From Haliclona indistincta (Eukaryota > Porifera > Demospongiae > Haplosclerida > Chalinidae), in assembly GCA_964017065.1 (NCBI GenBank), contig OZ024786.1:9181047-9245046 (forward strand): DNA of 64,000 nt. The letters are read 5' to 3'. The position numbers were made by a program, and so were the translations under genes. Below the pieces are notes generated by a model. That model was not told where the DNA came from. It saw only the letters and a list, made by a program, of their open reading frames with translations, and ran no database searches. This document shows positions 545-28,539 of this stretch, piece by piece; the first letter of the stretch is position 1, and the number at the start of each line of letters is the position of its first letter.

Positions 545-1202
545 AAAGTAAAAAAGCTTTAATAAAAAAAAACTGAAAAGTGTAGGGATGACTCTTAAAA
601 AAGGAAAGGAACAAGATGGGATGATGCTTGCAAAAGTAAAGGAACAAGATGGAATAATGCTAAGCTTGCAAATGTAAAAGTCCCAAGTATCCCTACATCA
701 GCGGCTTGCTGAGACGACGTGCAACTGACAAATGCGGAATCCTCCTTCTGAATCTATACCTTTACGACCGTTGATTACTTCATCGGACTGCGTCCTCCAA
801 ACACAGCTACCTGCAGCATATTTACAACCGTCAACTACTTCATCGGACTGCGTCCTCCTAAACACAGATACCTCTAGTTATTTACAACCGTCAATTTCTT
901 CATCGGACTGCGTCATCCAAACACAGATACCTCTAGTTATTTACAACTGTCAACTACTTCATCGGACTGCGTCCTCCTAAACAGATATACCTCTAGTTAT
1001 TTACAACCGTCAATTACTCCATCGGACTGCGTCCTCCTTCAAGCCGCTGATGTAGGGATACTTGGGACTTTTACATTTGCAAGCTTAGCATTATTCCATC
1101 TTGTTCCTTTACTTTTGCAAGCATCATCCCATCTTGTTCCTTTCCTTTTTTAAGAGTCATCCCTACACTTTTCAGTTTTTTTTATTAAAGCTTTTTTACT
1201 TT
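545..1202. repeat. Long palindrome (foldback) of copy D
   Basis: The left arm (545-708) and right arm (1040-1202) are reverse complements with only a one-base difference in an A-run. Each arm runs from an AT-rich extension through TGTAGGGATGACTC to ATCCCTACATCAGCGGCTTG. The roughly 330-bp loop holds a minisatellite. Transcription through it would give a 160-bp dsRNA stem. Confidence 0.9.
769..1038. repeat. 60-bp tandem repeat in foldback loop
   Basis: About 4.5 copies of a 60-bp unit, each with CATCGGACTGCGTC, followed by ACACAG, TTATTTACAAC and CGTCAA. It lies exactly between the palindrome arms and is absent from the loops of the other foldbacks. Confidence 0.9.
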
Positions 1203-1266
1203 ACTTATTCCTGTTACTTTTTTGATCACTATCAGTTTGAACTTATTAGTTGTATTCTATGTTAGA

Positions 1267-1870
1267 CCAAGGGCGTATAGAGAGAAGAGGGCATGCAACG
1301 CATACAAACATCGAAATCTTTATTGTTACTAACATTAGATTTTACGCCCACGCGGATGTGACATCACGCAAGGTTCATTAAACGTGAACGCGTCATACAG
1401 CGTGCGCGTTCAAACTTGCCCAGGCGTGCTCCATGGAAAACTAGGTGACAAATCTACAATCGACATGAAGCTGGTTGCCAACCATGTCGCGTATCACTGA
1501 TGGCGTTGGCTGAGACGTAGGTAAAACGAAACTGCTGTGCTGTCTATCGTTGGCGCCGTTGCTTCCTGCTGATCGGCTGCAGAGTATTTGACCAGCAACG
1601 GGCAACGAGCAGTATCGGACAGAGGCGAAGTCACGGTCTTTCTCCGCTTTGACTAGCGTGGCTGTGATCCGCGCGCGCAGCATGGTATTGTGCAGTGTTC
1701 TTCAGCTTGGTCTGCCATTACTCTGTGTAGTGACGTCAGATTCCGTTTACCCTCCGTATATCATAACAATAATTGATCACGGAAAGTGCTATTCTTAGTA
1801 ACAATAAAGATTTCGATGTTTTCACGGATAGTATTGCGTTGCATGCCCTCTTCTCTCTATACGCCCTTGG
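1267..1870. mobile_element. Non-autonomous TIR element, CCAAGGGCG family
   Basis: Ends are CCAAGGGCGTATAGAGAGAA and its reverse complement, with about 40 bp of terminal inverted repeat. A 5-bp target duplication TTAGA stands at 1262-1266 and 1871-1875. A second copy at 37963-39399 has the same ends, the same internal GGATGTGACATCACGC block and its own 5-bp duplication (CATAA). The element is 604 bp and has no convincing ORF. Confidence 0.88.
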
Positions 1871-2672
1871 TTAGACGTTATTTTATTTTGACAACTCTGT
1901 GAGCAGCAGTTACTAGTCTAGCAGATGTGAACGTGCACAGGGTCTAGAGAGTAAGGAGTGTAGTTTAAAATAATGTTTAATCATTCAATGAAAGGTTTAA
2001 AATAGTAAAGAGGTTGAGGACGCAGATAGCAAAATATCAAGTCCAGGTATGATTTGACATGATACTTGTTAGTACATGAAGGAAGAGACTAATACTGACA
2101 ACTCATGACTATGCAGTGCAAGCCTGAGTAGGAGCACGCCTAGTAGAACCTTGTTGATGTCAATATCACACTCACAGAGGCTTCTAGTCCTTTGCAATTT
2201 ACGCTGCCTGGTGTAGGAACCTTACTGTGCGTTGAGAATCTTGCTGCCGGTAACTTGGCTAGACTGAATAGCCTGGGCTTGTTCACGTCTGGGTATGTCA
2301 GTTTTAACCCGCCATCTGAAGCTTTAACGAACAGATCAGTGTTACTTAGGGTATAGTACTGCTCTAGACAAATTTCATACCTCTGGCTTGCGCGCTGAAG
2401 CGTCCAGAGCAGAGACAAAACGCAGTATCGATCGAGATAGCTAGCTGCAAAACTGATGTGGGCGGAGTTAATGATACGAGCGCCAAGAGGGTTAATTATT
2501 TAACGGCGTCTTCAGTCCAAAACGGCCCAAAATCCATGTTTTTCAAGGATTACTCGCTTCTGGTAGTGTTTAATGCCTATCTAAGATGTAAGTGCACTAT
2601 TCCAGATATATACACGTGCGATTGTGCAGGTTTGGTAGTGATTCGTTAACTCAGGACAGCGCTAGGCTTACT

Positions 2673-2702
2673 GAAAGAAGAAAGAAGAAAGAAGAAAGAA
2701 GA
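2673..2702. repeat. GAA/GAAA microsatellite
   Basis: A short run of AAAGAAG-type units. An equivalent tract sits at the same relative place in the other composite-element copies (about 12477-12502, 23724-23760 and 27191-27221, as TTTC/TTCT on the plus strand). Confidence 0.85.
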
Positions 2703-3056
2703 TGAACAATTCGCGTGGGCGGCGATTTCAGTTAACCACTTTAGAAACGTCTGCCAGCTTCGTTAAAGGTATTTCCATGCTCAGAACAATCGTCTGATCA
2801 ATCCCAGATGTCTGGAATCTCGAGAAACGCTAAAACAGCGAAGATCTGCAACTTGCTCCCTGAGAGTCGCCATCTTGATTTTCGTTGTCGAGCAAGCAGT
2901 CCCGGCGACTTTCATGGACTTCCTACAAGCGCTTACACTTCAGATTCCCTCAGAGATAGTTAAAATGCAGTACAAATGTATAACAATAGAGATATGTGCG
3001 AAAACTCATTTTCAAACATGAGTAGCCGCCATCTTAGTTCGAGGTCATCCCTACAT

Positions 3057-3078
3057 ATCATTGCCGATCGGCAATGAT
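3057..3078. repeat. Terminal hairpin of copy D
   Basis: A perfect 22-bp palindrome (ATCATTGCCGA and its complement) directly next to CATCCCTACAT, followed by AATTA. Copies at 12871-12894, 23483-23508 and 26950-26975 have hairpins at the same place with unrelated or different stems. Confidence 0.85.
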
Positions 3079-3079
3079 A

Positions 3080-3580
3080 ATTACAGCAAATCAGCGGGCT
3101 GTCTCGCGACTGGCTCGTCGTCTGAGGGACAAATTTGCGCTCATAGTGGCGCTTTCTTAGAGGCATGGTGGGTTTAACTGCAAAAAATAGTACCTGTAAA
3201 TAATTGTAACTCTAAGGTGACTATAGTTATCGGTGCTTATTTTGTCTCCTGGTTCACCAGCTCTGAAACCATCAATCTCAGCCATACCCACACAATATTC
3301 GTAATGGTATAACGCCATGTTAAGAGATAGAAGAGTGTGGGGTATGTACACCGAACTTCTTCCCGGGTGGAACGAACCGCGAGATTTCACACTGCAGTCG
3401 CGATCTCGTTACATATCTCGTGAACTCGTACACATCACGTCAGATGTCGTCCTCGCGGGTTCTTACATTGCAGCACTTTGCTAGGCGAGATCTCGAGCGA
3501 TGATGCGTGCCTCGAGTGCCACCAAAAGTGCTAAATGGCTGTTCTATTTGCGTTGTGTACGTACCTGTATCGAGGGCGCC
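3080..3580. other. Intergenic, old repeat fragment
   Basis: No gene recognised. About 30 bp at 3362-3393 (CCCGGGTGGAACGAACCGCG) reappear inverted near 7757-7786, so both are pieces of one dispersed repeat. Confidence 0.5.
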
Positions 3581-3760
3581 TACCGTATAGCCGGTTATTT
3601 TCATGTGAATTTAATTTTCGAACGGCTGGTGCGGGTCGAAAATTAGATTTCGAAAAATTCTATTTGCCAATTTAAAACGTATTGTGACGTGGCTCTGTGA
3701 CGAAAATTAGATCCAGCCAAAATTTGGCTAAGACCAGCGAAAAAAACCGGCTATACGGTA
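3581..3760. mobile_element. 180-bp MITE, TACCGTATAGCCGG family
   Basis: Ends TACCGTATAGCCGGTT and AACCGGCTATACGGTA are inverted, consistent with a TA target duplication. A larger relative is at 36530-37065. There is no coding capacity. Confidence 0.85.
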
Positions 3761-4200
3761 TGCTCCCGCTGTAAGATCTAGCTGCGTTCACTGGAAGATG
3801 TACAGCGATTAAGGTTGGCTGTTACTATCCTGGTTGCGAATTAAGCAAGAAAGGCGAGCAATCAGACTCGATCTCCAATGATCTCGCTCGATCTCGTGAG
3901 ATACCGGTGAACGCGCGCCGCGCCGGTAGGCGGTACTTGAGTGATCACGTGAGATACCGCAAGAGCACACACGCGATCACCCGGGAACTGGCAAGATCTC
4001 ACTGGTTCAGGGGGCGGCAACTCCAATGTACCCAGACCTACCAAGTCTCACGCCTCAGAGTGAAATCTCAAGCTCTCACGCTCACCTGCTGTAAACTCAC
4101 GCCTAGGGATCCTGAGATCGGATAATTCTAACTGATGCCCACTGCTATCAAAATTATTGGATCCAAAATGAAATTATCAATTTTTGTATTATTATAATTT
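3761..4200. other. Intergenic, GATCTCG-rich
   Basis: Contains repeated GATCTCG/CGAGAT words around 3840-3920 and otherwise nothing recognisable. Confidence 0.4.
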
Positions 4201-5171
4201 TTGGGGAATAAAAGTAATCAAAATTTTAAACGTAAAGAAATAAATCATGGCATCACACCTATTGCGAAACAAAAATTAATGTATTCTTCTGTTACATGTA
4301 ACAATAAAAATTCAATGAATATAATCAAGCCAATGAATAATATGAATATTAATGAATCTCGATACTGCGCTGACAAGATGGCGAAGACTGCACTGAATAC
4401 TCCCTTAAGCTATAGAGCGCCAGCTGCCGGGCCTACTGTTCAGAGAAAAAGTGCTCGCCTGGCCAAGAGGAAGGCCTCTTCTCGAATGTCCTCTTCATCT
4501 TCTTCAGTGCCCCTTGATGTTACTGGTCGGTCTCAGCTGACCTCGCCGCGAGTCACAGAGTCACAACCGTCAGCTCAGCTCTCTGCGTCGCCAACTCTGA
4601 GTCCAGAGTCCCCTGTGTTGCTGCGCTCCGAGCCTCCAAGCCCGCAATCCTCAGGGCGTCAAAGTCGACACTCACCGTCATGTTCCAAGTCACTACGGCC
4701 TTCTCGTCCACCTTTTCTTCTACCTACGCCACCTAGTCCTAAACCTCTGTCATCTCAATGCTCAGTCCTTTCTCAATGCTCAGTCCTTTCTAAGCTCCCG
4801 TTCCTTCTTTCTCTCTTTTTTATTCTAGTCCTTCTACTATCCCCTCAGTAGTTCTTTCCTCTTGTTGCATGTGTGTGTGTATTTTCCTGCTAACTCTCCT
4901 GTGTTTCACTTCAGTCCTCCTCTCTTCTTCCTGGTGACTTGGCTCGTACTATTATTACTATTATTTCTACCACTTGCTGTTATGACCTTTGTATCAACCT
5001 ACCTTTCATTCATGTTCTGTACATTTCATGTTTGTTCTTCATGACCTTCCACCTTGACCTTTGTTACATGTTTATCACTGAACTTGATCATTATTATTAT
5101 TATTGGTTTGTACCCTAGGATTAGCATTGCTACTGGTACAACCTAGCTTGTATGCTAAATTGTCATAAAAA
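4201..5171 (+). other. Possible retroelement remnant with Ser/Pro-rich ORF
   Basis: An open frame at 4201-4851 (first ATG near 4279) encodes a basic, then Ser/Pro-rich chain (KSARLAKRKASSRMSSSSSS, many SP and PS pairs) ending in a hydrophobic stretch. A pyrimidine-rich tract follows, then TTATTATTATTA, and the block ends in an A-run at 5166-5174. A Ser/Pro-rich ORF followed by a 3' tail with terminal A-run fits a 5'-truncated retrotransposon, but no RT or endonuclease motif is present. It could also be a host exon. Confidence 0.3.
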
Positions 5172-5201
5172 AAAATCTCACTCCCAAGGATTTTTTGCCT
5201 T

Positions 5202-6571
5202 GGCAGCTCTGATGTACCCTGTACTTGCGGCCGCGACCGGGATCAAATTGGAATCAATGGATCAAGATGGTTCGTTGGTGGCGATCAAAGGATCAAGCCA
5301 GTTCCTGGGCTGATCAAAATCCAAAATTTAACTCTACTCTAATAAGTTTATAAATCATAATCATACCTGTTTATAATGCTATACAATGAGTTATGACTCT
5401 CTGTGCATATGCTACGAGACCGTACACAGCGGAAGTATAACAGTATAAAGCGGCTAGCTAGCTACTCGTCAGGCCACTCCCACTAGGGGTAAACGGCCAC
5501 TCCTACTTTTTAAAATTAAGCTCCTCTCTGCGTGCCTGTTTGCCATTGCAGCTGTTCTTTGCACAGCCGTAGGTACGCATGGTAGTTACTATGGTACAGC
5601 TAAGCATGGGTGTTTGGTGTTAACTTGCATGTTTTTGCTAGAACTGGTGTAGTACGTACCATAGATATATTAACAGAGGGATTGGAAACTCTCGTTACTT
5701 CCGGAATAAGGCTCGTTTCGCTGACGTAATGGAGGTAGGGCTTCGTGCCAGCAAATCAAGTGTTTAGGTACGCGTGTAGCAACGTCGAAAGGAACTGCTT
5801 CGATGTGTAGAGCTGTGTAGAGCGAGTAACAGAACGTCATACATGGCTCACGCCACACAACTACTAATGTACTTTCGTCATATCAACATCCTATGTTGCT
5901 GAAGCAAGTCACTAGCAAGATAGAGGTACAACAAAAAACCTACCACAACCGACTTAAATACTGATTTACTACCAAAACAGACCATGAACCCACTAGAAAC
6001 TAGTACTACGCCACACAACTATCGTAGACGTACCTTGTTAACTCAATCTTGGCTTGAAAAAACGCACACAGGTACTCCTAGAGGTACAACAAACTCGCGC
6101 ACCACTAGGACGTACAGCCACAGCTTTATAGCTTATATGTATAGCGCGTACGGTGACTTTTACTGGTCTGATATATAGTCACAACAACTCCAAAGTCGAT
6201 CAAGAAGAAACTATCTCGCATTAGACCACAAAAGCCCGAGTTTGCGAGAATTCTTGCGCGCCAGTAGCTATCTCTAACCCGTATTTCCCGAAACGAGCCT
6301 TGTATAGAGGCGGAGTCGCGTTTATACACAGTATAGTATTGGAGTGATGACGTCACGTTCAGAGTTTCCAATCCCTCTGTTAATATATCTATGTACGTAC
6401 ACGGCAGACTAGCAGTAGGCTAGGGAGGAGCTTAAACGCGCACGTGCGTGACCAAGATCAAACGATCAAAGTCGAAAATCTACAGCAGTCAAGCGATCAA
6501 GATCAGATTTTGGACGATCAAAATTTTGATCCCGGTCGCGGCCACAAGTACAGGGTACATTAGAGTCGCCG
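5202..6571. mobile_element. TIR element with TGTACCCTGTACTTG ends
   Basis: Inverted ends TGTACCCTGTACTTG, then GGCCGCGACCGGGATCAAA (5213 onward), reappear as the reverse complement ending at 6559. Weaker inversion continues a dozen bases outward. Length is about 1.35 kb, of which 734 bp is a second inserted element. No target duplication was resolved. Confidence 0.8.
5660..6393. mobile_element. Nested TIR element, CATAGATA family
   Basis: Ends CATAGATATATTAACAGAGG and its complement extend about 33 bp (to GGATTGGAAACTC). The target duplication TACGTAC (7 bp, 5653-5659 and 6394-6400) is perfect. It sits inside the 5202-6571 element. The CA..TG ends and 7-8 bp duplication recall hAT or P elements. 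A related copy is at 38077-38909. Confidence 0.88.
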
Positions 6572-6903
6572 CCCCCTGCTCTTTCCGAGATTGCTACGGC
6601 GGCTTAAAGTACCAGATAACAAACTACCAACGATGGAAAACTTGACTTGAACAGCCAACCATATCCAAGAAGGACCAAGACTACCGGGTTCATTCATTAT
6701 GCTCAAAGCTAGGACTTACTGTGTGATGATCCACTGCAGGAGATACAACAGAGATTTTATTTACGGTTTAGTATTATAATACTTATTGTTACATCAACAA
6801 TTTAATAATAAAGACAAAGCTGCATGTGTAGAGGTGAAGTTGTCTAGCTTGCCGCCTGCTATTAGTCCGCTGCGTCGCGACTGCAACCTGGGTGGAGAAA
6901 GTC

Positions 6904-7437
6904 ATTGCCGAGCGCCTTAGCGCGAGGCAAATAATCGCGACGGTGTGCGGGGGACTGGAGCGTCGTGCGTTTTCTCAGTAATGTTAATATGTTTGTAATG
7001 TATATTTAGATGTCACGCTTAGGAATGCTAATCAGGGTTACGGCGAGGGCTCATACTACGTATTATACTGCGGGGTCACGGGACCCGGTATGAGATAAAA
7101 ACTTGACGGTGGGTTGAGACCATGGCGGATCAGATCCCAGAGTCTACTCCTGACAGAGCCAAGTGGCTAGCTCGAGTCAGGAAGAGAAAACAGAGAGCAG
7201 CGGCCTGAGTCTAACGCCACAAAAGAAGCAAGGCACGCCGTCAGCAGTACTACTGACAATACACGGAACCGGCATTGACTCTTAGGTCGTCTGACACGAG
7301 TCCACGAGGCCGAAAACAGGAAGCTAGCTTGCTGTATCTGTACCTGCTGGCCGTCTGCTGTCGAGCCCTCCTGCTGGTCAATTATAACTACTTAATAAAC
7401 TCAGCGCGAGGCATTCATGCGTATTCGTAACTCCTAG
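6904..7437 (-). repeat. Dispersed repeat, copy 1
   Basis: About 535 bp present in inverted orientation at 33632-34193 with high identity, including GATTAGCATTCCTAAGCGTG and AGGAGTTACGAATACGCATG. Within it 7123-7208 reads as a short frame beginning MADQIPESTPDRAKWLAR and ending after RKRKQRAAA. The other copy has a stop at the fifth codon, so this is a decayed coding segment of an unidentified transposon. The 10-bp AGCGCGAGGCA occurs near both ends. Confidence 0.75.
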
Positions 7438-8039
7438 TAGCATAATAACAGCGCATCTAGTAATGTACCATTATAACAGCAGCAGTCAGTAGCAACAACC
7501 ATGGAAGAACACAGCGGCAACAAAGGTAGCTGAGATAGTTGATGTGTAGGTAGATCTCGGACAGCAGGCAGTGTTCGTAAAGCGCATCGAAGTAAGTTAG
7601 TTATCGCAGTGGCAGTGCTAATTCTCCTGCCGTCGTGGTCCCGCGGTTTCTATCGCCGAGTAACAAACGAGATTCTAACGATATACCGCTGATAATTGGC
7701 GGGTTTCATCGTTAATATCTCGCGTCATGTAACCGTGATCACGCAACATTATTGTGAAATCTCGCGGTTCGTTCCACCCGGGTTATTACAGAAGAAAAGA
7801 GTGTTGGTACACTACACAACATGTCTATGGAGCTTGAGTCATACCAGTCTTCTTTACATCATTCTATTCCAACCATTTATCACCACACACTTAGCCCCCT
7901 TGTAGATGTAAGCCAGATCACAATGTGACACAATCAACAATACATGCATTTGATATCAATCATGTTATGTTACGAAAATAGTGACACACAGAATCAATGT
8001 GTAGTACAAACTGGTTTTGAATGCCACTGCATTGATTAC
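7438..8039. other. Intergenic or intronic, nothing recognised
   Basis: Probably the 3' part of the ankyrin gene or its flank. No exon with a convincing frame was found below 8319. Confidence 0.35.
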
Positions 8040-8235
8040 AGCTGATTGCAGCAAACATGACTCTCAGTTTTGACAAACAGACTACAAGAACTCATAATTA
8101 TTTGTGGTCAACACCACACCTCTCCCTGTACATGCTAGTATAGGGAGAGGTATGGTGTTCACCACAAGTTAACAGTCATTGAAGTTAGTTCCATAAAACT
8201 GAGAGTCAACTTTGCTGCAATCAGCTGTAGAGCCC
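8040..8235. repeat. Small foldback
   Basis: Nested inverted repeats: GCTGATTGCAGCAAA against TTTGCTGCAATCAGC outside, and GGTCAACACCACACCTCTCC against its near complement inside (8107-8170). It is typical of a decayed MITE. Confidence 0.7.
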
Positions 8236-8318
8236 TACTGCTGAGGAGCATAGCACTTAAAGCAAACATTATAACCTTAATCAAGAAATTAATACATGTC
8301 AATCACCTTATTCCTCAC

Positions 8319-11300: not shown

Positions 11301-14300
11301 GAGAAGAGCGGATCAATACAACAGACATGAACTAATAACAGTCTCTAATAACTATCATTATCACACAAACATTCGTAACTGAACTGAATTTTGATTACTG
11401 TGTCAAGTGTCTATTGCTAAGCATTGTTTCATACAGTACCCTGGTATAGGGGATTCCCCACTGCTAGCCTGTGTCATTATGATGAAGCCAATATCTCATC
11501 TGTTGGTATCCAAAATATAGCAAAGGCCCGATAATGACTCTTATAGAGGGCTTAAAATTTCAAAAATTTTCAATTTCTAAAAGCCGATCAACTTTCGAAC
11601 ATTATAAACGTTCTCTCAAATTCTGTATCTAACCCCACTAGGCAGTGGTATCACTCAAATTACAAGTAATAAAAACATTTTAAACAAAATGCAAGAGATT
11701 TAGGGTTGGTACATTTATCGAAAAAGTATGGAAACAAGATTTTGAAATGAAAAGGATTGTAACAATAGCAGTGTAATGCTACCTCCCTATTAAATTAACA
11801 ACAACTATCGAAAGCAGTTAATTTAGGGAGGTAGCATTACACTGCTATTGTTACAATCCTTTTCATTTCAAAATCTTGTTTCCATACTTTTTCGATAAAT
11901 GTACCAACCCTAAATCTCTTGCATTTTGGTTAAAATGTTTTTATTACTTGTTTCTTTTCTTTTTTTATTAATGACTTAGTTGGCACTTATGCTAATACAG
12001 TGTAAAGAGCCTCTTGAACTATTTCAGCTGGCTGCATGCCGCTCATGGCGATCGACTCTGCACTGCATGCATTCAACACGTACCATGCAACATTAGCTAA
12101 GCTTAAGCTAGCATTCTTACAAGCCTGAACAGACAAATCCAGTGTAACAGTGAAGATTTGCTCGTTGTCTGCTATGAACACTGCTAGTGGCAGCACGGCA
12201 CTCGGTTACAAGCAATTTGTACTAAGGTGCGCTTGTATTAGAATATTTACATACACGGGCGTGCGCGAGTAGGCGTAACCTAGTAACGGAGTTCAAACAG
12301 AATGATGGAATGGAGTCTGTTATGGACCAAAGATCGCTGTTTTCCTGGAAATACTCGCTTCTGCTAGTGTTTTAGGCTTAAATAGATATCAGGTGCACTG
12401 CTCACAACGACTAGTGTAGTTTCTGTGTAGGTTTTGTCTTGAATAGCTCACTCGCCACGGCCCTAGGCTGGCTGGAGAAGAAGAAGAAGAAGAAGAAAGA
12501 AGATGAACAAACGGGTGACCACGTGAACTCTGGTTTACCACCTTAGACCTGGTTTCTTTTGCTTCTGAAGGTCTCTTTATAATCGCACAAATCGTGCAAA
12601 GAACTTCAGAACGTTCGATTAGCTTGAAACGCCCATACGGCGAAGATATGGCAGTGCCGTACTTAGTGCCTCCAGGCGAGACGCCATCTTTTCATGCCCA
12701 TAGCAACTGGCCTTATAGTCTTTATTAGTAGACTCATTGTAAGCGCTTACCTCTTAGGATAGCCCCTAGGTAGTTAAAATACCCCTGATGTTGTCAACAG
12801 CCAAGATATACGTGAATTATTGCGTTTAGCCTAAGTGTAGCCGCCATCTTGTTTTCCGCCCAACCCTAAATATGCCACGTCTACCGCGTGGCATAATTTA
12901 TAACTGGTTTCATCAGATACATGTAAATGACGTGACTAAATGAATAGAAATGTATCCAGTTTGCAGTGAACCAGGAGCAGTGTAACCTAAGTGTCTCAGT
13001 AATGATACTTGTGTTTATTCACAAGTACCCAATGTACATGTACAGAAATACATTGTACACTGTTACTATGACTCACATTGTCTGTGGCATTAACTTGAGC
13101 TGTTGTTCTCTCAACCAGGTATTGTACAGTGGCTGTGCGACCGCACCCAGCAGCCATCATCAGAGCAGTACATCCATCCTGCACATGAGAAGAGTGGATC
13201 AATACAGCACACATGAACTCTCTAATAACTATCATTATCACACAATCATTCGTAACTGGAGCAGCTAACATAATGCTCTCTCTGATCCTACCCAGTCACC
13301 ATCACAATACTGGTGAACCTGTTCATCAGCTCTCTCCCTACCACTACAGACCATAATGTGGTCACATCATATTTGACGGGATGATAATGGGACCCACAGA
13401 GGAGATAGGCATTAACCCCTTCACCACCAAGGATTGCTCAGTCACATGACATGTGAGACAAGCTGCACTGACAATGCTACTCAACACAAGAGAGTGACCT
13501 CTGAATAAAGGACACACAATCCTTGAGAGTGGTATAATGTCAATAGTAATGGGTGTGGTTAGTAGACAATCACTATCATTGTGCCAGGACAGTGTCTCCT
13601 AGGAGCTCCCAGTATCTAACAGTAGAGAATTTTAGTTTGCCGTTTCCGGTAAACGTGGGGACGTGTAGGGCATCACGTGATCCCATCCATACGTGTCTTG
13701 CTTGACGTTGACACGGGTGGATCAGCACTGTTGATACGCGGGCAGTGCAGTGGAAGTGCACAGTTGATAACGGGCATGATGCAGTGCAGTCACACTTTTC
13801 TATTCCAAATCTTTCGCCTTTCTCTTTTGTAGAACCAAATACAGATAGAAAGTATAGCATCTCTAGATATTCTGCTTCACTATCCTAAGACACGTTCTCG
13901 ACCAGCATAGCCAAGGATCTCTAACACGTCGTCTGAATCGCGCCTAACATAAAGCACAGTTAAGCTGCACAGTCAGTAACAGCAACTTACTTGGATCCAG
14001 TCGACATATTCGTCACTAAAGCAATCGAAGCCGAGCTATCTAGGCCAGCCGTTCGTTGTGCATGAACTAAAATTCTCTTCGCTTGAATTCGTCACGTGTG
14101 GGAGTTACCCGTTTCCCCGCATCCCGGAAACGCCAAACTAAAATTCTCTAATATGTGATTACTTACGTGTGTGTCACGTTAGTTTCCACACAGATTTTGT
14201 ACGCGGGTATGCTACGTTCGACACTCTTCTTATTATTATACTCTTGGTAATTGGATGGTCCATATTTAGTTACATCATGTGACTAGTTGGGATTATCACA

Positions 14301-19913: not shown

Positions 19914-20652
19914 GATCGCGGTATAATTATGATGGTGATGATATAGTCTGTGTACGAAGCAGTTAGCACAGCTAGCAACGAGCCGAGCTAGCGGCTACTA
20001 GGCATGCTCGGGCTACATGAAGAACCAGGACTCGACTTTATAGATCTCTTGACCATAAGCCCCACCCCTCAGTACTGCGCATGTGCAAGCCGCGAGTACA
20101 CTGCACATGTACCAGAGACTAGTCGATACTATAGTGATAAACTGTGCGAGTTCAGTAGGAAATAAAGAAATCTGCATGATATCAGCTGAGAGAGATTTGT
20201 AGTCGTGAACGGTCTCACAATGTGTTGTGATCAGCTGGTTGCTGGTGGCCCAGCTCATTCAGCAATTTCACCTGCATTCAGTATTCAGCAATTTCATTCT
20301 GGATTTTTTTACGTTATGTTGTTTTCAAGTGGTATAGTCATACTTTGATTTATACACAGTTCCTCTATTATTATCATAAGGATTATAATTTTGTTATTAC
20401 TTACTAGTGTGATCATGCATGAAAAAGCAAGTTATATCATATGTAACCTGCCCTACACCCTCCTCAATACAGGTGTATATCATTGCTATTTCAACTGCAT
20501 GCAGTGTACACAAAGAAAGGAATGTATATAACTGGGTATAACTGTTGTTGTTGTCGTTGAATAAAAAAAAATTATGTTTAAATTGTCACAAACTAGTCTT
20601 GGCGTGCACATGTATTATAGTCTATTCATAGGAGTTGAATTTATTCATGTGA
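19914..20652. promoter_or_regulatory. Presumed 5' flank of the ankyrin gene
   Basis: This stretch lies directly upstream of the ankyrin ATG (minus strand, 19913). No TATA box or clear element was seen. Assignment as promoter is by position only. Confidence 0.35.
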
Positions 20653-20922
20653 GTGCATCCAATGGTGTCCCAGAACCTGCCTGTAGTCAGCGTTCCGTTG
20701 ATAATGTTCATTGATGACAGCAGTGGTAACAGAAGCAAAAAATGGAACTGCTTTGATGTCTGGTATCTGCTTCTAGGAGGCCTCAGCATAGAGGAAAATG
20801 CTCATCTTAGACTGAACCATTTACTTCATCACAGTCATGTTCAAATAGAGTTAGCCCACTCGAGCTTGCAGCTCATATTGTTACAGATCAATTTACATTT
20901 TTATAATAAAAAATTAATATGA
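20653..20922 (+). pseudogene. Possible transposase relic
   Basis: An 89-codon frame carries LPVVSVPLIMFIDDSSGNRS then KKWNCFDVWYLLLGGLSIEE. The D-SGN-SK-WN-F-WY-LAGL pattern recalls a motif I associate with transposase-like proteins of the Kyakuja-Dileera-Zisupton type. This is a recollection, not a computed match. The frame decays after this motif and nothing nearby extends it. Confidence 0.3.
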
Positions 20923-22328
20923 TAGAGTTGCCTGTTTTGTCAAAGTTCATTGTCTGTGGTATTCAATTTATATTACCATTCTAGACTACTTAGTCTAAAT
21001 AAAAAGTGACAAAGTGGGGGTTCATTTTTATTCAACTAGTTGGACTAGAAAAAAATTAATTTTTGTGAGGCCTTATGAAAATGCATTACAATTATTGTCG
21101 TCAGGACATTTCAGTAGCCTTGATTTACCAGATGTCAGTTTATATATTTTGAATGCTGATTTCCTCATGCAGCCCACACTCATCTCACCTCATGGTGGGC
21201 ACTGCATGGCCCATTTCTACATCCAGGCAGTGCCCGCCATGTTCTCAGCATTATGATTACATGCATGAGGATGTCTGATCTCCCTTTCTAAGAACACATG
21301 CACACGTCATCCATTATTGTATCACTGACCACAAGCAAATATACTTTAGTAGTATAGCAGTATCTACATCTATCAGGTGTTGTTAATTGAATAATTGATG
21401 GATTGAGAACAATACTAAATTTCTGCACATAGCTGATCTAAGCTATTTTGATGTCTACATGTGGAAAAGATTCAAATTTTAAAAGTCCATCAGTTTCTTG
21501 GTCATCCAAGGCATGCCAAAATTTCATTTCAGCTTTAATAAATTCTTGTGATCAACTTTGGTGTTCTTGTTCTTGTCCATCATATCAAATATCTCTCGAC
21601 CTTGTATTCATTTCATGTAACGTTGCCTTTATGATTATACTCTAGAAAGCATTGGATTTTTTTCAAAACAAGTTTTTGTTTGGCTGCGGCCTCTTTCTCC
21701 ATCATAGCTGCTACTAGTTTAAGTTATTCTTGTTCATTTGCTTTCCCACGCCCTCTGTAAGTCCCATGAAGCATCATAGTAATCCTTCCTTAGCTGCAAT
21801 TCTTAACTTGTCCATTTCAACACGACGGTCAGTGCCATGAGTTTCGCCAAATTGTTGTTGTAAAGCTCGAAGTATTCTCGCGAGAGGTAACCATTAATTT
21901 TTGTTAGTGTCTAGCTGAGAAAGATGCCTTTCACACGTGCGACCCAAATTTTATGATTCTACTTGTCATGGTTATTTCATGTTCTATTTTTAGTAGTAAG
22001 CTTACTATATATAGCCAATAGACGGCTACTATCTGTTGAATAGTGTTGGAAAGTACCTGACTAACTTGCAAGCAGGATCGGAAAATCATTCACGAGGATA
22101 TCTTCAGCTTCAGTCCGTATAAAACGAGTTACCTTTCTAGGTACATGTAAGATGCAACTTTAATAATTATAGGTACTGATGCCATATGTACAGTATTTTT
22201 GCATGTAAAAAATTTATGTTCAGTGTAGCTGGACAAAGCAGACATAATCTCAACTCAACTAATTGTACGAGTTGGACTTTAATCTATACTATCGATCATC
22301 ATGAAATTTTTAGGAAGCGGCCGTGCCG
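20923..22328. other. Upstream region of ispF, no gene recognised
   Basis: AT-rich with short unassigned ORFs. About 65 bp at 22141-22205 (GTACATGTAAGATGC onward) resemble 28735-28800, so each lies upstream of a plus-strand gene. A possible splice acceptor TTTTTAG stands 17 nt before the ispF ATG. Confidence 0.4.
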
Positions 22329-22811
22329 ATGTCTCTCAGAATAGGCAATGGCTATGACATTCATCCGTTGGTGCCTGAGCGTCCATTAATTCTAGAAGGA
22401 GTCCAAATACCGCACACATTGGGTCTTCTGGGCAACACTGATGCAGACGTGCTGATTCATGCACTTATTGATGCCATGTTAGGAGCTCTTTGTCTTGGAG
22501 ACATTGGTCATCATTTCCCGCCTAATGATCCAAAGGTCAAAGGTTTGCGAAGTGTGTCCATGTTGGCAGAAGTCAAACAGATGATCAGTGAAAAAAATTG
22601 GAAGGTGAATAATATAGACACGATAGTAGTGGCAGAGAAACCTAAACTGATGCCATACATTGACAGTATGCGTGACAATATTGCTAGAGTGCTGGAAATT
22701 GAGAGAGATTGTGTCAGTGTCAAGGCTAAAACTAATGAAAAACTTGGTCCTGTCGGCAAAGAAGAAGCAATTGCTGCTCATGCTGTTGTATTACTATCAA
22801 AGATGGTATAA
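22329..22811 (+). CDS. ispF: 2-C-methyl-D-erythritol 2,4-cyclodiphosphate synthase
   Basis: A 160-residue uninterrupted frame covers the whole IspF fold. The family enzyme forms a homotrimer and makes MEcPP from CDP-ME-2-phosphate, releasing CMP, in the MEP isoprenoid pathway. Visible signatures are GYDIHP with zinc ligands D10 and H12, [16 protein letters not shown] with the third ligand H44, [13 protein letters not shown], and KAKTNEKLG then AAHAVVLL at the end. One deviation is that the usual His of the HSD motif is Asn36 (GNTDAD). ATG at 22329 is chosen because family proteins start just before RIGxGYD. A GTG lies six bases upstream. Neighbours are eukaryotic: an intron-rich gene lies tail-to-tail 140 bp downstream and composition is AT-rich on both sides. 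Animals use the mevalonate pathway, so horizontal acquisition, or misassembly of symbiont DNA, must be considered. Confidence 0.93.
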
Positions 22812-22951
22812 TGTAAAATTGTATAGATCATAATAATGACTCTTATTAACTTTATTATTGTATGCATGACGCAATTAATTCACATCATTATAGTATGTCT
22901 AAAATTAATAGTTTGCAGTGATTGTGGTTAGGAAAAGACATCATACACATG

Positions 22952-23957
22952 TTAATCATTCATTTGATGATACACATTGCCACTGAAACTCTGCAATTAA
23001 AAAATAGTAGTTGCTTTGCTCATTAGTATAGTGACAGGAATTATGAACATACCTTTTTGTGATTACGAACCAAGACAATACTTATAGTTACTAAAACACC
23101 TATAATCAGAACAAGTATACTGCAAAAAGTGACAGAATATAACTATCATGACAATTCAATATTGAATCTTACAGTACTCCAAAAGTGATTCCAATAGCAG
23201 CACCTACAGATGGTTGGTTACTGGCACATACTCCTGGACAAGCACAGTTTGTATGTAGATCAAATATCTGCATGTTCAAGGTTTAGATGAATTATTATGA
23301 ATTTAGCTGTTTCTTGCTTACATAAAATAGAGGATGACCTTTATCACCTTCAGCAGTCAAAAGTGGTGTTTGCTGGTTGATATCACAATGAAGCCTTACA
23401 TACATTGATCTATATAAACAGTATTTTTATTCAGTTCCTACACAAGTTGTGCTAGTGATAAGGGAAAATTCAACTAGTTTATTAGGGAGACACGGTAGTG
23501 TCTCCCTATGTAGGGATGAACGAGAAAACAAGATGGCGGCTACATACATGTATTAGCGTTCAAACGCTGATATTTTGCCTGGTGTTGAATTTTATACGTC
23601 TTTAGACACTTAGATCTGCTCTCTGGCGTTGCCCCATCTTACAGTAGCAAGGAGATTGCTCGAAATTGTTACTAAAGTGACGAACCTGGAAACGGTGAAA
23701 ATCGAGTTTCGTCATCTTCGTTTTCTTCTTTCTTTCTTCTTTCTTTCTTCTTTCTTTCTTCCACTCGCCTAGCGCCTTTACGCGAGCAGTGCCGAGACCA
23801 AAACATCCACGAACAGTCGTGAAATTCCCCTGGCATGTGCCTTTTGAGCTTTGTTTTTAGCGTAACGGCGATCTAAGTTCCGCGATTTCTCGATCGTGAT
23901 CCATTGTCAGCTTAGTGTTAGACGCCATTGTGATTGCGCAATACGCACGTGACCAAG

Positions 23958-23996
<39 letters not shown>

Positions 23997-26900
23997 GAGT
24001 GGGTGTCTACGCTTTTATGGTAGGACTTAAAGAGATTAATGATACAAAAAAAGAGAAATGATGCAAAAAAAAAAGAGAAAAAAGGGATTGAAATTAGTCA
24101 CTAACCCTACCCTCAGTAAGGGCAAGGTCAGCAGCAGTGTCTAGGCGATTGAATGAGAAGAGCGACCGTGATCCTCGAAGGCAAGTTATTGTAGAACGAA
24201 GAAGAGAGAAGGTGAGTTTACATCTAATGAGGCGGATGACTGAATTGTAAGACTGGCCAGATTTCTCAGCAATCATAGAGGATATTCTTTTGTACACAAC
24301 TGATGCTGCTGGGCCGATACCTCCAAGAGTGTTGAAGACCAGTGGAATGAAACTACCCTGTTCGACTTCGCGAACTCTCTGATCATAACGTCTCCTTTTC
24401 TCTTGCTCTTGCTTCTTGTAACATGTAGACAGCGGTTGGTTATTAGATGGAGCAAGGGGGTTAAATACCCTGACGTCAAAGAAAGTACGTTGTCGATCAC
24501 GAGACCAAAAATTAGTGGCAGCAACATCCAAGCGTGCACCATCATCGCGATTAGCAGACTTTAGGGCCAGGTTTTCACCGGAGAGTGGCTGGAGAGATGG
24601 TTCTACCTTCACGTCATAGCAAACTTCCTGTAACAAGGTAGCAGTAATGTTCCGCAACTCATTATGTCGCATGATGGTGTAGCCTCCATGAGCACAGCTG
24701 AGACAGTGATCAACCGTGAAAGATTTACCACACACACAGTTGTTAGGTAACCCTGTTGGCTCCCATCCATATCTCAAGCAAAGGGCATCCCTAAAGGAAG
24801 ACTTGTGTAAATGAAAATTATGCTCTTGAATTGGGAGAACAGATAACCAGCTTGATGCCCCCTTTTCAGCTGCACATTCCATTTGTCTGCAAAGAGCAGG
24901 AGGAAGATTCTCTTTTACCACATTAGCACGTTCTCTGGCAGTTCTGGAGTTATTTTTAGAAACCTCAGAGACCAGCTCTGATTGAGTTGAGAGAATACTT
25001 GCATAAGATGTAGTAAGATGGTCAGTAAGAGAGGCGACTAGTGGAGCAGTGATCAAAGTTGAGGCTCGAAACTGAGATGCAGCTCTAGCACAAGGGTTGG
25101 AGATACTCAGTCCTCCGAAACGAAAGGGAAGAGAGAGGAGGTCCCTTATCGAATCGTTTGGGGGATCTCTTCCAGTAAGTGCAGGGATAAATTTTGTACG
25201 AATAGCATCCTCTAGAGGTTGAAAAAGGTCGTCAATTCCGGGACAAGTGCGAGACAAATATGTCCACTTACTCGAGAATCCATGCACAAATGCAGAAAAA
25301 GCTGCTTGTGGGTGCGGGATGGCGATAACAGCTAAAGTCTCCAATTGGGCTACCCAATCTGAAATGCTATTTGTGACAAAATTGTGAATAAATTCAGGAG
25401 AGCCAATGGGAGAGCCTAGCACCCTTCTACCATTCAGATCGATTGAGATCCCAGTGTTGGAAAAGATTTCTTTGGCTGCATCAGAGTGATCTTCTTTTAC
25501 CAGCAAGTAGGTCTTAGATGCGTTTGGAAAGTACCCATAGGATGGGCCAGTAGATACCAAAGAATCCCACCAGGTGCGAATGTCCTTCAACTTTCCTGAA
25601 CAGGAGGCGTCGTCAGCATACCAAACCTGGAGGATGTTCGGATCAGAAAGAGATTGAATGAGTGGCAAACTAGCTAAAGCATACATTACCATTCCAAGAG
25701 GGTCGCCTTGTGTTGTTCCCTCTTTAGATTTAAGCACTGTACCACCGATGTAAAGGTTGACCTCAGAGCGGTAGGAGTTGATCAGAAATCTAGCAATGGA
25801 TGGACACAGGTGAAGAATGTTCAGTAAGGCTGTCTGACGGCTGTTCAGACTGTGTGACCTGTTCAGACTGTGTGACTGTTCAGACTGTGAGAATGTTCAG
25901 TAAGGCTGTCTGACGGCTGTTCAGGCTGTTCAGTAAGGCTGTGTGACCAAGCAATGGGTAGCGCACGTGACCAAGGAGCTAAAGTATCGCTGCGCCGTGT
26001 GGATCACTATCACGGAGAACACACTCTCGGCATTTGTCTGGAGTCTTCGAAGAACGGTAAGCTCGTGTAGGATCGCCATTCTGCACTTGCCAGATAATTA
26101 TAACCGCCGTATTATAGGTCTACAAACAAGTGTGGGCGGGGCTCGTATGAACTGCATGCATGCGTAGGCGACTAGGCAGACCTGATACGTACAGCTTAAC
26201 AATTAAATTTTTAGCTATAAGTTTAAGAAAAGCCATCAAAAACCGGATTACTAAACAAATGGTGGAAATAAAGACTTCTCAACACATGCATGATATTGAA
26301 CTGCACTTCACTAAAAAGAAAAAAGGACACAAACAAGAAATTAAAAAGATTTCTATCGAAATCAAAAGGATGTAGTGATGAAGAAATCTACCACTGGTTC
26401 ACAATGTAAACCAACAAGGAACAAGCATAGAATGGTGACACGATTGACTTGCTAACAGACCATAGATCCCTACATCAGTGGCTGTACATAAGATCAATAT
26501 TTTGTCACAAGCTGAATTCTATTCAAAGTGTCAGTCAACAGTAAATAGCTTAACTAGCTATAATCTGGCCACAGCAGCCACTGATGTAGGGATCTATGGT
26601 CTGTTAGCAAGTCAATCGTGTCACCATTCTATGCTTGTTCCTTGTTGGTTTACATTGTGAACCAGTGGTAGATTTCTTCATCACTACATCCTTTTGATTT
26701 CGATAGAAATCTTTTTAATTTCTTGTTTAGCTATGTACAGTATCATATCAAATAGATTCTTTTATAAAATTCTCTGTGTGGTGATCAACATGGTCATTCA
26801 AATGTATAAGCAAGATTTGTAGCCATACTGAATATAGCTCTCAAGAGTATATCCAGCTGGAAATCATGACTTTTGCGATGTAATTCTTAGTTGACTCACC

Positions 26901-28539
26901 TTCCTTCATCTCCTCCAATATAGTACAGTACGGTTGAATTGCCTACTATTAGGGAGACACGGTAGTGTCTCCCTATGTAGGGTTGAACGAGAAAACAAGA
27001 TGGCGGCTACATACAATGTATTAGCGTTCAAACGCTGATATTTCGCCTGGTGATGAATTTTATACGTCCAAAGACAGTAAATCTGCTACCTGGCGTTGCC
27101 CCATCTTACAGTAGCAAGGAGATTGCTCGAGTTTGTTACTAAAGTGACGAACCTGGAAACGGTGAAAATCGAGTTTCGTCATCTTCGTTTTCTTCTTTCT
27201 TCTTCTTTCTTTCTTTCTTTCTTCCACTCGCCTAGCACCTTTACGTGAGCAGTGCCGAGACCAAAACACCCACGAACAGTCGTGAAATTCTCCTGGCATG
27301 TGCCTTTTGAACTTAGTTTTTAGCGAAACGGCGATATAAATTCCGCGATTTCTCGATCGTGATCCATTGTCAGCTAAGTGTTAGACGCCATTGCCTAATA
27401 ATTATAGTGATTGCGCAATACGCACGTGACCAAGCTGTGGTTAGCGCACGTGACTAAGCACAAGCTTGAGTATCGCCACGCCGTATAGATCACGGAGAAC
27501 ACATATTTGTCTGGAGTCTTCGAAGAACGGTAAGCTAGCCAGCGCAGAATCACCATTCTGCCTTGCCAGATAATTATAACATCTGTAAACAAGTGTGGGC
27601 GGGGCTTGTATGCTATTCATGCATGCGTAGGCGAGCTGATATCTACAGCATAACAATTATTTAGCTACAAGTTTAAAATTGTCAATAATAAAGAAACGCC
27701 ATCAACAACAGGAAAACCAAACCAATGGTGGAAACAAAGATGGCACGGTAATTGCATGATATTGAATTGAACTGTACTTCACTGAAAAAGAAAAAAAGGA
27801 CACAAACAAGAAAATTAAAAAGATTTCTATCGAAATCAAAAGGATGTAGGGTTGTGAAATCTACCACTGGTCAACAATGTAAACTAACAAGGAACAAGCA
27901 TGGAATGGTAACACGATTGACTTGCTAACAGACCATAGATCCCTACATCAGTGGCTGTACATAAGCTGTCACAAGCTGAATGCACGTCAACAGCAACAAG
28001 CTAAGCTGAACTAGCTATAGTCAACTACAGCAGCCACTGATGTAGGGATCTATGGTCTGTTAGCAAGTCAATCGTGTTACCATTCCATGCTTGTTCCTTG
28101 TTAGTTTACATTGTTGACCAGTGGTAGATTTCACAACCCTACATCCTTTTGATTTCGATAGAAATCTTTTTAATTTTCTTTGTACATGGTTTCTGTGCTT
28201 GCAGCTCCTAGGCTATAGCTCTCATTGGCACATAATAACAGGTACACACTCCTCATCATTATAGCTCACTGAGTGTTCTAAAGAGGTCTGCATGCATCAT
28301 TAACATCAGCAGTAGCTATAGGTAGCTTTGTATCAATAGGTGTCTTCTGTATAGTATGCACATTCCATTGGATAAAAATATCTTCTCTAAAGCAACTGCT
28401 ATTCATGTAGCTATCAGTGGCTACAGAGACTACATGAAATAAACCATGCATTGATCAATCTGTATCACACATAACATCTCACCAGTTGGAGGAGGTGATT
28501 GTGGTGTAGCATTGGCTGATGAGGCAGAGACTGAGCTGG
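22952..28539 (-). CDS. MRH-domain (mannose-6-phosphate receptor-like) membrane protein, 3' six exons
   Basis: Exons on the minus strand: 28483-28539 (SSVSASSANATPQSPPPT linker), 26900-26945 (STVLYYIGGDEG), 23322-23409 (SMYVRLHCDINQQTPLL), 23173-23267 (IFDLHTNCACPG), 23053-23119 (LILVLIIGVLVTISIVLV, a transmembrane helix, then RNHKK) and 22952-22990 (SFSGNVYHQMND, stop). All borders are GT-AG and phases join. YxGGD, Arg, Cys, then TxxACP is the closing pattern of mannose-6-phosphate-receptor-homology domains, although the second Cys of the usual GDxC is absent. The product would be a type I receptor of the secretory or lysosomal route. The 5' exons (signal peptide, first half of the domain) were not found before the next gene at 29092, so the gene may be truncated or have small missed exons. 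Two introns each contain a composite element. Confidence 0.72.
23962..25943 (-). mobile_element. 5'-truncated non-LTR retrotransposon
   Basis: The insertion carries a 34-nt tail (T-run at 23961-23994, an A-tail on the minus strand) and is bounded by a 13-bp target duplication GTGACCAAGCAAT (23949-23961 and 25944-25956). The uninterrupted target is visible in copy B2 near 27425. The 5' junction (25838-25943) is scrambled: short units such as TGTTCAGTAAGGCTGTCTG and GTTCAGACTGTG repeat several times before the body starts. Confidence 0.93.
24094..25850 (-). CDS. Reverse transcriptase / restriction-like endonuclease ORF (N-terminally truncated)
   Basis: About 580 codons stay open. The N-terminal part has TALLNILHLCPS, then the RT motifs GTTQGDPLGM and VWYADDAS (catalytic DD). 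The C-terminal part has CVCG, DHCLSCAHGG and RHNELR (a Cys/His finger) followed by RLDVAATNF and FDVRVFNP, resembling a PD-(D/E)xK endonuclease. This order fits REL-endonuclease non-LTR elements related to the R2, NeSL and Hero groups. Exact clade not assigned. The first RT motifs and any ORF1 are missing, so it cannot be autonomous, yet the remaining frame has no stop, which suggests a recent insertion. No natural start codon: the frame is cut by the truncation. Confidence 0.92.
26331..26728. repeat. Perfect 154-bp-arm palindrome of copy B1
   Basis: The arms 26331-26484 and 26575-26728 are perfect reverse complements over 154 bp, with a 90-bp loop. Outer motif TGTAGTGATGAAG, inner motif ATCCCTACATCAGTGGCTG. 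Confidence 0.95.
26950..28180 (+). mobile_element. Composite hairpin-foldback element, copy B2
   Basis: Hairpin 26950-26975 (same stem as B1), TGTAGGGTTGAAC, AAGATGGCGGCTAC, a TTCT/TTTC tract at 27191-27221, then a 150-bp-arm palindrome at 27808-28180. It is 1,231 bp with no ORF of note. The hairpin begins two bases from the apparent splice acceptor of the MRH exon at 26900-26945. Confidence 0.87.
27808..28180. repeat. Perfect 150-bp-arm palindrome of copy B2
   Basis: The arms 27808-27957 and 28031-28180 are perfectly complementary. They differ from the B1 arms at several sites (for instance TGTAGGGTTG for TGTAGTGATG, AAACTAAC for AAACCAAC), and each change is present on both arms. Confidence 0.95.

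Follow-up and report, generated by a model that had tools for sequence, protein, structure and literature searches.

Non-autonomous elements of probable Helitron2/Helentron type with a long 5' foldback in the sponge Haliclona indistincta

In the portions of the published accounts available to us, Helitron2 elements encode a RepHel protein and carry asymmetric inverted repeats of 8-15 nt. The 3' repeat lies just before a terminal hairpin, the 5' repeat lies 0-2 nt from the end and is included in a 5' hairpin (PMC3627910), and RepHel is occasionally reversed relative to the ends (PMC3627910; Bao and Jurka 2013). Helentron, HINE and DINE-1 elements are described with subterminal inverted repeats, a 3' stem-loop and a microsatellite (PMC4067079; Thomas et al. 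2014). They do not modify the target, and short copies derive from autonomous ones (PMC4067079). The oyster Cg_HINE has a 5' repeat with an inverted partner 1-12 nt away, a microsatellite in the left module, and a repeat and a palindrome on the 3' side (PMC7492417). Fusarium FoHeli has Helitron2-type ends and reversed ORFs, and its short duplicated 5' termini are attributed to self-insertion (PMC5148889). Canonical Helitrons and Helraiser combine an HUH Rep and a helicase with an A|T target and a 3' hairpin (PMC5876387).

Our study concerns a 64,000-nt window of the Haliclona indistincta genome (GCA_964017065.1, OZ024786.1, 9,181,047-9,245,046), whose numbering is used throughout. Four loci in this window correspond to three families, A (n=1), B (n=2) and C (n=1), with the following limits:

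545..3080 (start approximate), + strand, family C non-autonomous element, with a nested TIR element at 1266-1871
11663..12896, + strand, family A non-autonomous element, running from 5' foldback to 3' hairpin
23482..26725, - strand, second family B copy, with a nested insertion inside
26949..28182, - strand, family B non-autonomous element

The family A copy sits between host A (11662) and host T (12897). A first-pass annotation had already ascribed a single architecture to the four loci, and our analysis bears this out, with limits that agree within 3 nt and with a foldback and a hairpin at each locus. The copies that it placed at 545-3079 and 23483-26728 are indeed foldback elements, to which a nested 606-bp element and a nested insertion of about 2 kb, respectively, now have to be added.

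The 5' end of each element is made of two long inverted arms:

551..1197, + strand, C 5' foldback, arms 551-708/1040-1197 (158 nt, 96% ungapped)
11662..11951, + strand, A 5' foldback, arms 11662-11789/11824-11951, loop 11790-11823 (128 nt, 99%)
26331..26728, - strand, foldback of the second B copy, arms 26331-26484/26575-26728 (154 nt, 100%)
27808..28180, - strand, B foldback, arms 27808-27957/28031-28180, loop 27958-28030 (150 nt, 100%)

Both arms and loops are specific to each family, and the C loop contains 60-bp tandem repeats. In the stretch of contig C1 examined, 40/45 A, 41/58 B and 39/60 C foldbacks were two-armed pairs.

An asymmetric repeat of 10-12 nt is located near the 5' end, about 36 nt inside, and is found again, inverted, directly before the 3'-terminal hairpin. 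The corresponding features in the window are:

3045..3055, + strand, C 3' subterminal repeat TCATCCCTACA
3056..3079, + strand, C 3'-terminal hairpin (DNA folding)
11699..11709, + strand, A 5' asymmetric subterminal repeat TTTAGGGTTGG, inverted again in the inner arm at 11904-11914
12475..12503, + strand, A GAA microsatellite
12840..12850, - strand, A AAGATGGCGGC motif
12860..12870, + strand, A 3' subterminal repeat CCAACCCTAAA, an exact inverse copy of the A 5' repeat
12871..12895, + strand, A 3'-terminal hairpin (DNA folding)
26950..26975, - strand, B terminal hairpin (DNA folding, stem variants)
26976..26985, - strand, B 3' subterminal repeat
26997..27007, + strand, B AAGATGGCGGC motif

Conservation was followed in 64 copies, namely the 20 best-scoring genome copies per family and the four window copies. 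The 5' and 3' subterminal repeats match over 10 nt in 61 of them, the ATGGCGGC motif is kept in all 64 (60 genome, 4 window) and the microsatellite is found in 63. The AAGATGGCGGC motif presumably resembles a YY1-type promoter element. Within one arm, 9-12 nt pair in families B and C as well as in the inspected autonomous copies (by eye), and only about 5 nt in A. Folded as DNA, three hairpin sequences gave -9.0 to -11.6 kcal/mol, a stability equaled by 0/200 shuffles for each. Stem pairing is kept in 99 of the 100 listed zero-mismatch matches to the degenerate hairpin, and the paired stems belong to three sequence types (56, 42 and 1 by hand count), these numbers being copies and not independent events. 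Such compensatory changes indicate that the 3' hairpin is conserved. In family A, the ends read CAAGTAAT...CATAA, with the hairpin 1 nt from the end.

Four empty sites (A_win, L040, B_L050 and C_L068) are consistent with insertion at A|T, and no target duplication was seen at them. This reading tolerates host differences of 1-2 nt, and the left side of C_L068 was read by eye. A|T gives the best fit. Start and stop bases are nearly identical across the sampled copies, apart from a B start that shifts by a few bases. In addition, the base 3' of the element end is T in 63/63 readable copies (one of the 64 being unread), and the base 5' of the start is A in 21/21 A copies.

Across the 144-Mb genome, A, B and C each recur with their own two ends constant, in line with the initial description of a composite element present in many copies with identical hairpin and foldback ends. 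Of the 40 places scored for each of A (1344 candidates) and B (3268 candidates), window copies included, 35 and 37, respectively, are aligned virtually end to end. Exact arm matches number 568 for A, 3150 for B and 741 for C, and end matches of these non-autonomous families run from hundreds to thousands; such copy numbers are pattern matches, and the places listed are the first 100. Whether the two ends occur mostly apart, as the first-pass annotation had asked, receives a mixed answer on contig C1. There, an element-side foldback lies at most 12 kb from the exact-match hairpin in 16/31 cases for A, 36/52 for B and 20/47 for C, hence for roughly half of the A hairpins and fewer than half of those of C, versus 3, 10 and 2 cases in the wrong-side control. 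From the foldback side, an exact hairpin accompanies 16/45 A, 33/58 B and 20/60 C foldbacks, that is, under half for A and C. Three unlinked hairpins were inspected and have different bodies or no foldback: sharing is limited to the final 72 nt in L114 and to 43 nt in L115, and L116 has an A body that begins at the inner arm and is preceded by 426 nt free of any foldback. The hairpin module therefore also serves elements that lack this foldback.

Long open Rep-helicase frames are present in the same genome. One locus, L086, is a complete B-type partner that contains the B hairpin, the ATGGCGGC motif, the microsatellite, a 2272-aa ORF and a 192-nt foldback with 100% identity. Pfam matches identify an HUH Rep (Helitron_like_N), a PIF1 helicase and an OTU domain in this ORF. 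Hence, the autonomous relative called for by the first-pass annotation was found, with Rep/helicase and both ends, and the Helitron-like nature that it gave to the hairpin end is upheld. Of the autonomous loci of the L086 lineage, 12 of the 13 examined on the hairpin side have a hairpin end, and 5 of the first 8 examined on the foldback side have a long foldback. A RepHel protein between both ends was observed for the B type only. For the A type, L107 provides a partner hairpin end (92.5% match to A 706-1235), with an incomplete foldback. For the C type, a Rep gene is located 4.5 kb from a hairpin; no foldback was found near it in the stretches examined, nor was a complete autonomous C element. 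Pfam found no Exo_endo_phos domain in the partner protein P0001. This domain is present in a separate lineage, L085 (Helentron with endonuclease), in which the stretches examined contain none of the family ends. In a midpoint-rooted tree of 42 chosen sequences, built without named Helitron1/2 reference proteins, the partner proteins split from 15 endonuclease-bearing Helentron-like proteins with a support of 0.975-1.0. Replitrons were considered and dropped, the partner protein having a PIF1 helicase and Helitron_like_N.

Overall, A, B and C are very probably short non-autonomous rolling-circle transposons of Helitron2/Helentron (HINE) type with autonomous partners in the same genome. Fixed ends, asymmetric repeats at both ends, empty sites that fit A|T and the complete B-type partner all point to this assignment. 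The layout, first taken for an undescribed kind, is that of published Helitron2, Helentron and HINE elements (PMC3627910, PMC4067079, PMC7492417), as far as the available parts of these accounts go. On the same basis, the sponge elements resemble Helitron2 by RepHel and its reversed orientation, the asymmetric inverted repeats, the 3' hairpin and a 5' hairpin with the 5' repeat. However, their 5' repeat is set about 36 nt inside instead of 0-2 nt, their target fits A|T rather than T|T, and an inverted duplication with arms of 128-192 nt makes up their 5' hairpin. The Helitron2 5' hairpin is found here as a variant, within-arm pairing inside a far larger foldback. Repeats, stem-loop, microsatellite, an apparently unmodified target and short derived copies are shared with Helentron/HINE/DINE-1, whereas the long foldback, a target that fits A|T instead of TT and a partner without a C-terminal AP endonuclease domain are not. 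Cg_HINE also has a 5' repeat with an inverted partner, a microsatellite and a 3' repeat with a palindrome, but it contains central satellite arrays, and the available text describes no long foldback (PMC7492417). Likewise, FoHeli has Helitron2-type ends, duplicated 5' termini and reversed ORFs, but the available description mentions no inverted duplication at the 5' end that is both long and perfect (PMC5148889). Finally, HUH Rep and helicase, A|T target and 3' hairpin are common to canonical Helitrons and Helraiser. In contrast to these, the sponge elements lack 5'-TC and CTRR-3', carry inverted subterminal repeats and have their hairpin at the very end (1 nt in A), not 10-12 nt inside.

The new feature is the 5' end, where an inverted duplication with arms of 128-192 nt replaces the short hairpin. 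In the literature accessible to us, Repbase and subscription papers excepted, we came across no description of a Helitron whose 5' end is a long, perfect foldback. What is novel, to our knowledge, is only how long and how perfect the 5' palindrome is.

Arms are more alike within a copy than between copies, with mean mismatches of 0.38, 0.41 and 0.19 (A, B and C) versus 2.04, 1.69 and 2.02. When arm 2 was permuted among copies, the observed mismatch totals (8, 9 and 4) were reached in 0/5000 permutations for each family, the permuted minima being 21, 13 and 22. Thirty distinct variants occur in both arms of one copy, and private variants common to both arms number 3 in A, 9 in B and 6 in C. Each of the 21 one-arm variants is one-armed in a single copy only, so that no one-arm inheritance is seen. 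Among four related autonomous copies whose bodies share one orientation, L117 has its loop inverted with respect to those of L092, L094 and L100. Arm identity within copies and this loop inversion indicate, at the sequence level, that the arms were homogenized by gene conversion or at transposition.

Ordinary chromosomal gene conversion or recombination between close perfect inverted repeats might alone equalize the arms, unrelated to transposition. We hold this to be a plausible account, slightly more likely wrong than right. Loop inversion in one of four autonomous copies is what inverted-repeat recombination would produce, and private variants present in both arms also fit. However, the 63/63 non-autonomous copies with a readable loop have it in one orientation. 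Moreover, no one-arm inheritance is seen, a pattern that equalization at each transposition fits equally well or better. The uniform loops also led us to reject flip-flop as a regular feature of non-autonomous copies, and they weigh against the comparison with parvovirus terminal hairpins, of which the AAV ITR is the example. There, every cycle would remake the 5' arm through snap-back, self-primed synthesis and nicking of HUH type. The HUH Rep partner, the subterminal repeat within the stem, arm identity and the flipped loop of one copy agree with such a process. Flip-flop, however, predicts about half of each orientation where 0/63 non-autonomous loops are flipped, and Helitron transposition is thought, in the account available, to use a single transposon strand (PMC5876387). 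We therefore regard this process as unlikely.

The long inverted arms might also evoke a DDE transposon, MITE-like or of the Foldback kind (FB/Galileo-type), that folds back at one end. But Foldback and TIR transposons have inverted repeats at both ends and a target duplication, whereas the foldback of the sponge elements is confined to one end and their four empty sites show no target duplication. Moreover, the protein of the partner is a RepHel in which Pfam matched no DDE domain; this contradicts the very improbable DDE reading and led to its rejection. Perfect inverted arms are in addition a known type of long-read artefact (fold-back reads). An assembly or sequencing artefact is the least credible explanation, close to negligible, and was discarded given the abundance of exact arm matches, mostly two-armed pairs on the C1 stretch, and their family-specific arms and loops. 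Annotating similar repeats as MITE or foldback elements can mislead.

For A, B and C as Helitron2/Helentron-type elements, we infer transposition through a single-stranded intermediate. Autonomous partners with the same ends would move them by means of an HUH Rep-helicase-OTU protein whose frame runs from the hairpin end toward the foldback. Rep would nick both ends, the 3' hairpin would act as terminator, and the intermediate would be a single transposon strand. The 5' arms could snap into a near-perfect hairpin of 130-190 bp in the single strand, or into a cruciform in the duplex, presenting the 5' recognition repeat as double strand. Paired arms may exchange or repair and stay alike, and occasional crossing-over between them may flip the loop. 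The foldback most likely arose by head-to-head duplication of the 5' module normally present, which comprises the terminus, the subterminal repeat and the inverted partner of that repeat, for example by self-insertion. It is improbable, in our view, that the palindrome evolved into a virus-ITR-like end, a self-complementary Rep-binding 5' hairpin with the outer arm renewed from the inner one at each cycle; if true, such an element would repair its own 5' end. With respect to how Helitron2/Helentron 5' ends are recognized, a long 5' palindrome with measurable arm correction and a loop flip makes a structural 5' role directly testable, and correction via a folded intermediate becomes testable with these families.

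The 606-bp element within the family C copy (1266-1871) has perfect inverted ends of 37 nt. The insertion of about 2 kb in the second B copy lies at about 23962-25943 and is bordered by a 12-nt repeat, TGACCAAGCAAT, at 23950-23961/25944-25955 (by eye).

The four foldbacks that the first-pass annotation had placed in the window were confirmed by an inverted-repeat check, and their loci belong to three families, A, B and C, of short non-autonomous elements with a palindromic 5' end (foldback) and a 3'-terminal hairpin:

11663-12896, family A element
26949-28182, family B element
23482-26725, second family B copy, interrupted by a nested insertion
about 545-3080, family C element, interrupted by a nested 606-bp element

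In the genome (144 Mb, 46 contigs), A was recovered essentially end to end in 35 of 40 scored places, window copy included, and B in 37 of 40, the window's own copies among them. The C sample consists of 20 fetched copies, chosen from the listed places having both parts. Because the fetched copies were among the best-scoring, the sample is biased to complete, window-like elements. Exact matches to the hairpin end occur 742 times for B, 372 times for C and 171 times for a single loop variant of A.

The element nested in the C copy (1266-1871, 606 bp) has 37-nt perfect terminal inverted repeats, and a relative of it elsewhere carries an A element (L040). The insertion in the second B copy (23962-25943) has a long T run and TGACCAAGCAAT flanking both sides. 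Its 600-aa open frame (24094-25896, minus strand) gave no match in a Pfam search and carries a YADD motif, presumably that of a LINE reverse transcriptase. Just left of the C element, positions 22-345 encode Dimer_Tnp_hAT, the C-terminal hAT transposase dimerisation domain.

In the alignment, the first and last bases coincide or nearly coincide between copies, and the flanks differ. A elements start with CAAGTAAT and stop with GTGGCATAA; B elements start around CAAGAAAA, varying by a few bases, and stop with TCTCCCTAA; C elements start with AAGTAAAGT or AAAGTAAAG and stop with CAATGATAA. A T directly follows the stop in 63/63 copies with a readable end, the remaining copy of the 64 (L055) being unscored as its end differs by one base. 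An A directly precedes the start in 21/21 A copies and 14/20 C copies (one of 21 unread); in B, the 5' boundary varies between copies. Insertion at A|T without duplication fits the paralogous empty sites of four insertions (the window's A copy, L040, L050 and L068), if the host copies may differ by 1-2 nt; the left side of the L068 site, misplaced by the alignment, was read by eye. Nesting of one family in another accounts for two of the four: L050 sits in a C element and L068 in a B element. Two more candidates, A_L034 and B_L055, gave no clean alignment and were left out. At the 3' ends of L080 and L083 and at C1:6742646 and 6742714, hairpin ends are tandemly duplicated or extended, as if termination had been imprecise.

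The first-pass annotation had joined hairpin and foldback into one element. On contig C1, exact matches within the stretch covered by both lists were paired up to a 12-kb limit; such matching misses diverged ends and, for A, also other loop variants. On this basis, a foldback lies on the element side of 16/31 A, 36/52 B and 20/47 C hairpins, compared with 3, 10 and 2 in the wrong-side control, and the distances cluster at unit length. Counted from the foldbacks, 16/45 A, 33/58 B and 20/60 C are linked to a hairpin, and both arms are matched in 40/45, 41/58 and 39/60, respectively. Many hairpins are thus unlinked, and the three that were read are not missed foldbacks: L114 shares only its last 72 nt with C, L115 only its last 43 nt with B, and L116 consists of an A body lacking a foldback. 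Therefore, hairpin and foldback form a unit in a large element class, as proposed, and other elements that lack such a foldback use the hairpin module too. Within 0.56 Mb of C1 (7402369-7961572), 13 C-type hairpin ends accompany only three C foldbacks; L114, the sole hairpin read there, has another body, which contains short tandem repeats.

At the foldback end of each family, the arm contains a 10-12-nt asymmetric repeat some 36 nt in from the terminus; its inverse directly precedes the terminal hairpin. This pair matches over 10 nt in 61/64 copies, the exceptions being two copies without a 5' repeat recognised by the search pattern and the interrupted B copy, off by one base. An A/T difference in the repeat (GGGTTG versus GGGATG) is identical at both ends within a family and different between families. 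A AAGATGGCGGC-type motif beside the hairpin is found in 64/64 copies (62 AAG, 2 AAC); a GAA-type microsatellite is found in 63/64. The motif, located upstream of the partner ORF, resembles a YY1-type promoter element. A degenerate hairpin pattern with up to 3 mismatches occurs at 2654 places in the genome (reversed control, 0). Among the 100 matches listed, all exact to the pattern, the hairpin retains pairing although the stem sequence differs: 99 are paired (GAGACAC/GTGTCTC 56, GAGGCAC/GTGCCTC 42, GACGCAC/GTGCGTC 1) and one is unpaired, these being copies and not independent events.

Helitron_like_N gave 86 matches in the genome, many within open frames of more than 2000 codons, and two autonomous lineages were looked at. 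The L085 lineage is a Helentron, with OTU in the middle of the protein and a C-terminal endonuclease; L085 itself (C7:4761000-4770900) has 2105 codons open. The L086 protein contains Helitron_like_N, PIF1 and a C-terminal OTU, with PHYHVLLW as HUH and YVSGYVTK as two-tyrosine motif, and a domain search found no endonuclease domain in it. In a midpoint-rooted tree of 42 chosen proteins, the 15 from the L085 search, all with the endonuclease domain, separate from the 27 from the L086 search, none with it (support 0.975-1.0). Among named proteins, those closest to the partner protein are three entries from a sponge, Ephydatia muelleri, with 57-64% identity across half to the full length of the query; Em-labelled entries reach 56-61%, and the remaining named matches (insects, a nematode, a ctenophore) 33-40%.

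At one end, L086 carries the B hairpin, repeat, ATGGCGGC motif and microsatellite; the foldback at its other end has 192-nt, 100% complementary arms. The L086 ORF runs from hairpin to foldback end. A second, partial B-type foldback (L086 9635-9810) lies 200 bp past the element's end. A hairpin end is present in 12 of 13 loci of this lineage with the hairpin side fetched (L086, L087, L089, L091, L093, L095, L097, L099, L107, L109, L110 and L111) and absent from L108; that of L107 is A type, matching A at 92.5% across 534 nt. Five of the first 8 loci with the foldback side fetched have a long foldback: besides L086, L092 and L094 (188 nt, 100%), L100 (189 nt, 99.5%) and L088 (228 nt, 19 mismatches by ungapped extension). 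L096 has a nested B copy only, and L090 and L098 show no foldback in the stretch fetched. In the A-type partner, the arms are 102 nt long and 99% alike, and one side lacks its outer part. For C, a Rep gene lies 4.5 kb from a C hairpin, and the stretches fetched yielded no foldback.

A, B and C share their layout with Helitron2, Helentrons and HINEs (PMC3627910, PMC4067079, PMC7492417), a group with reported reversed ORFs and duplicated 5' ends (PMC3627910, PMC5148889). Helraiser requires its left end and uses the right hairpin as terminator (PMC5876387); by analogy, we infer that the left end and hairpin would have the same roles here. A, B and C differ from strict Helitron2-type features in how far the 5' repeat lies from the end and in the A|T target, and their partner protein lacks the Helentron endonuclease. 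We therefore class them as a new variant working like Helitron2, not as a proven member. Searches confined to the literature turned up no 5' end with a long palindrome and homogenised arms.

The inner arm reproduces the 5' terminus right to its final bases (in A, CAAGTAAT...ATTACTTG); the palindrome is therefore an inverted duplication of the whole 5' module. In the B, C and autonomous copies read, the inner edge of each arm is marked by an inverted form of the 10-12-nt repeat followed by CATCAGTGGC-like letters. Both copies of this mark are present in 20/22 B and 21/21 C elements, one in 2 B, and none in the 21 A. Between those marks, the arm sequences of A, B and C look unrelated.

The arm comparison took in every one of the 21 A, 22 B and 21 C copies. 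The two arms of one copy differ by a mean of 0.38 (A), 0.41 (B) and 0.19 (C) substitutions, and the same arm across copies by 2.04, 1.69 and 2.02. Of 30 distinct variants shared by the two arms of a copy, 18 are private to a single copy; there are also 21 one-arm variants, each one-armed in a single copy, and one of these, in C, occurs in both arms of ten other copies. When partner arms were permuted among copies (5000 trials per family), the observed mismatch totals (A 8, B 9, C 4) were never reached, the lowest permuted being 21, 13 and 22. The arms evolve together. One-arm variants amount to about 1.7 (A), 1.5 (B) and 0.7 (C) per 1000 arm sites and copies, lower than private substitutions in the body (6.2, 5.5 and 4.3 per 1000), and the arms may be more constrained than the body. 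Loop orientation is uniform across the non-autonomous copies, 63/63 where the loop could be read (no match in one B copy). In one autonomous subfamily (n=4), the 231-nt loop of L117 is inverted relative to the other three, at 98.7-99.6% identity and with co-oriented bodies. Together with the likeness of arms within copies, this inversion indicates sequence exchange between the arms with occasional crossing over, either in the chromosome or within a folded intermediate of transposition.
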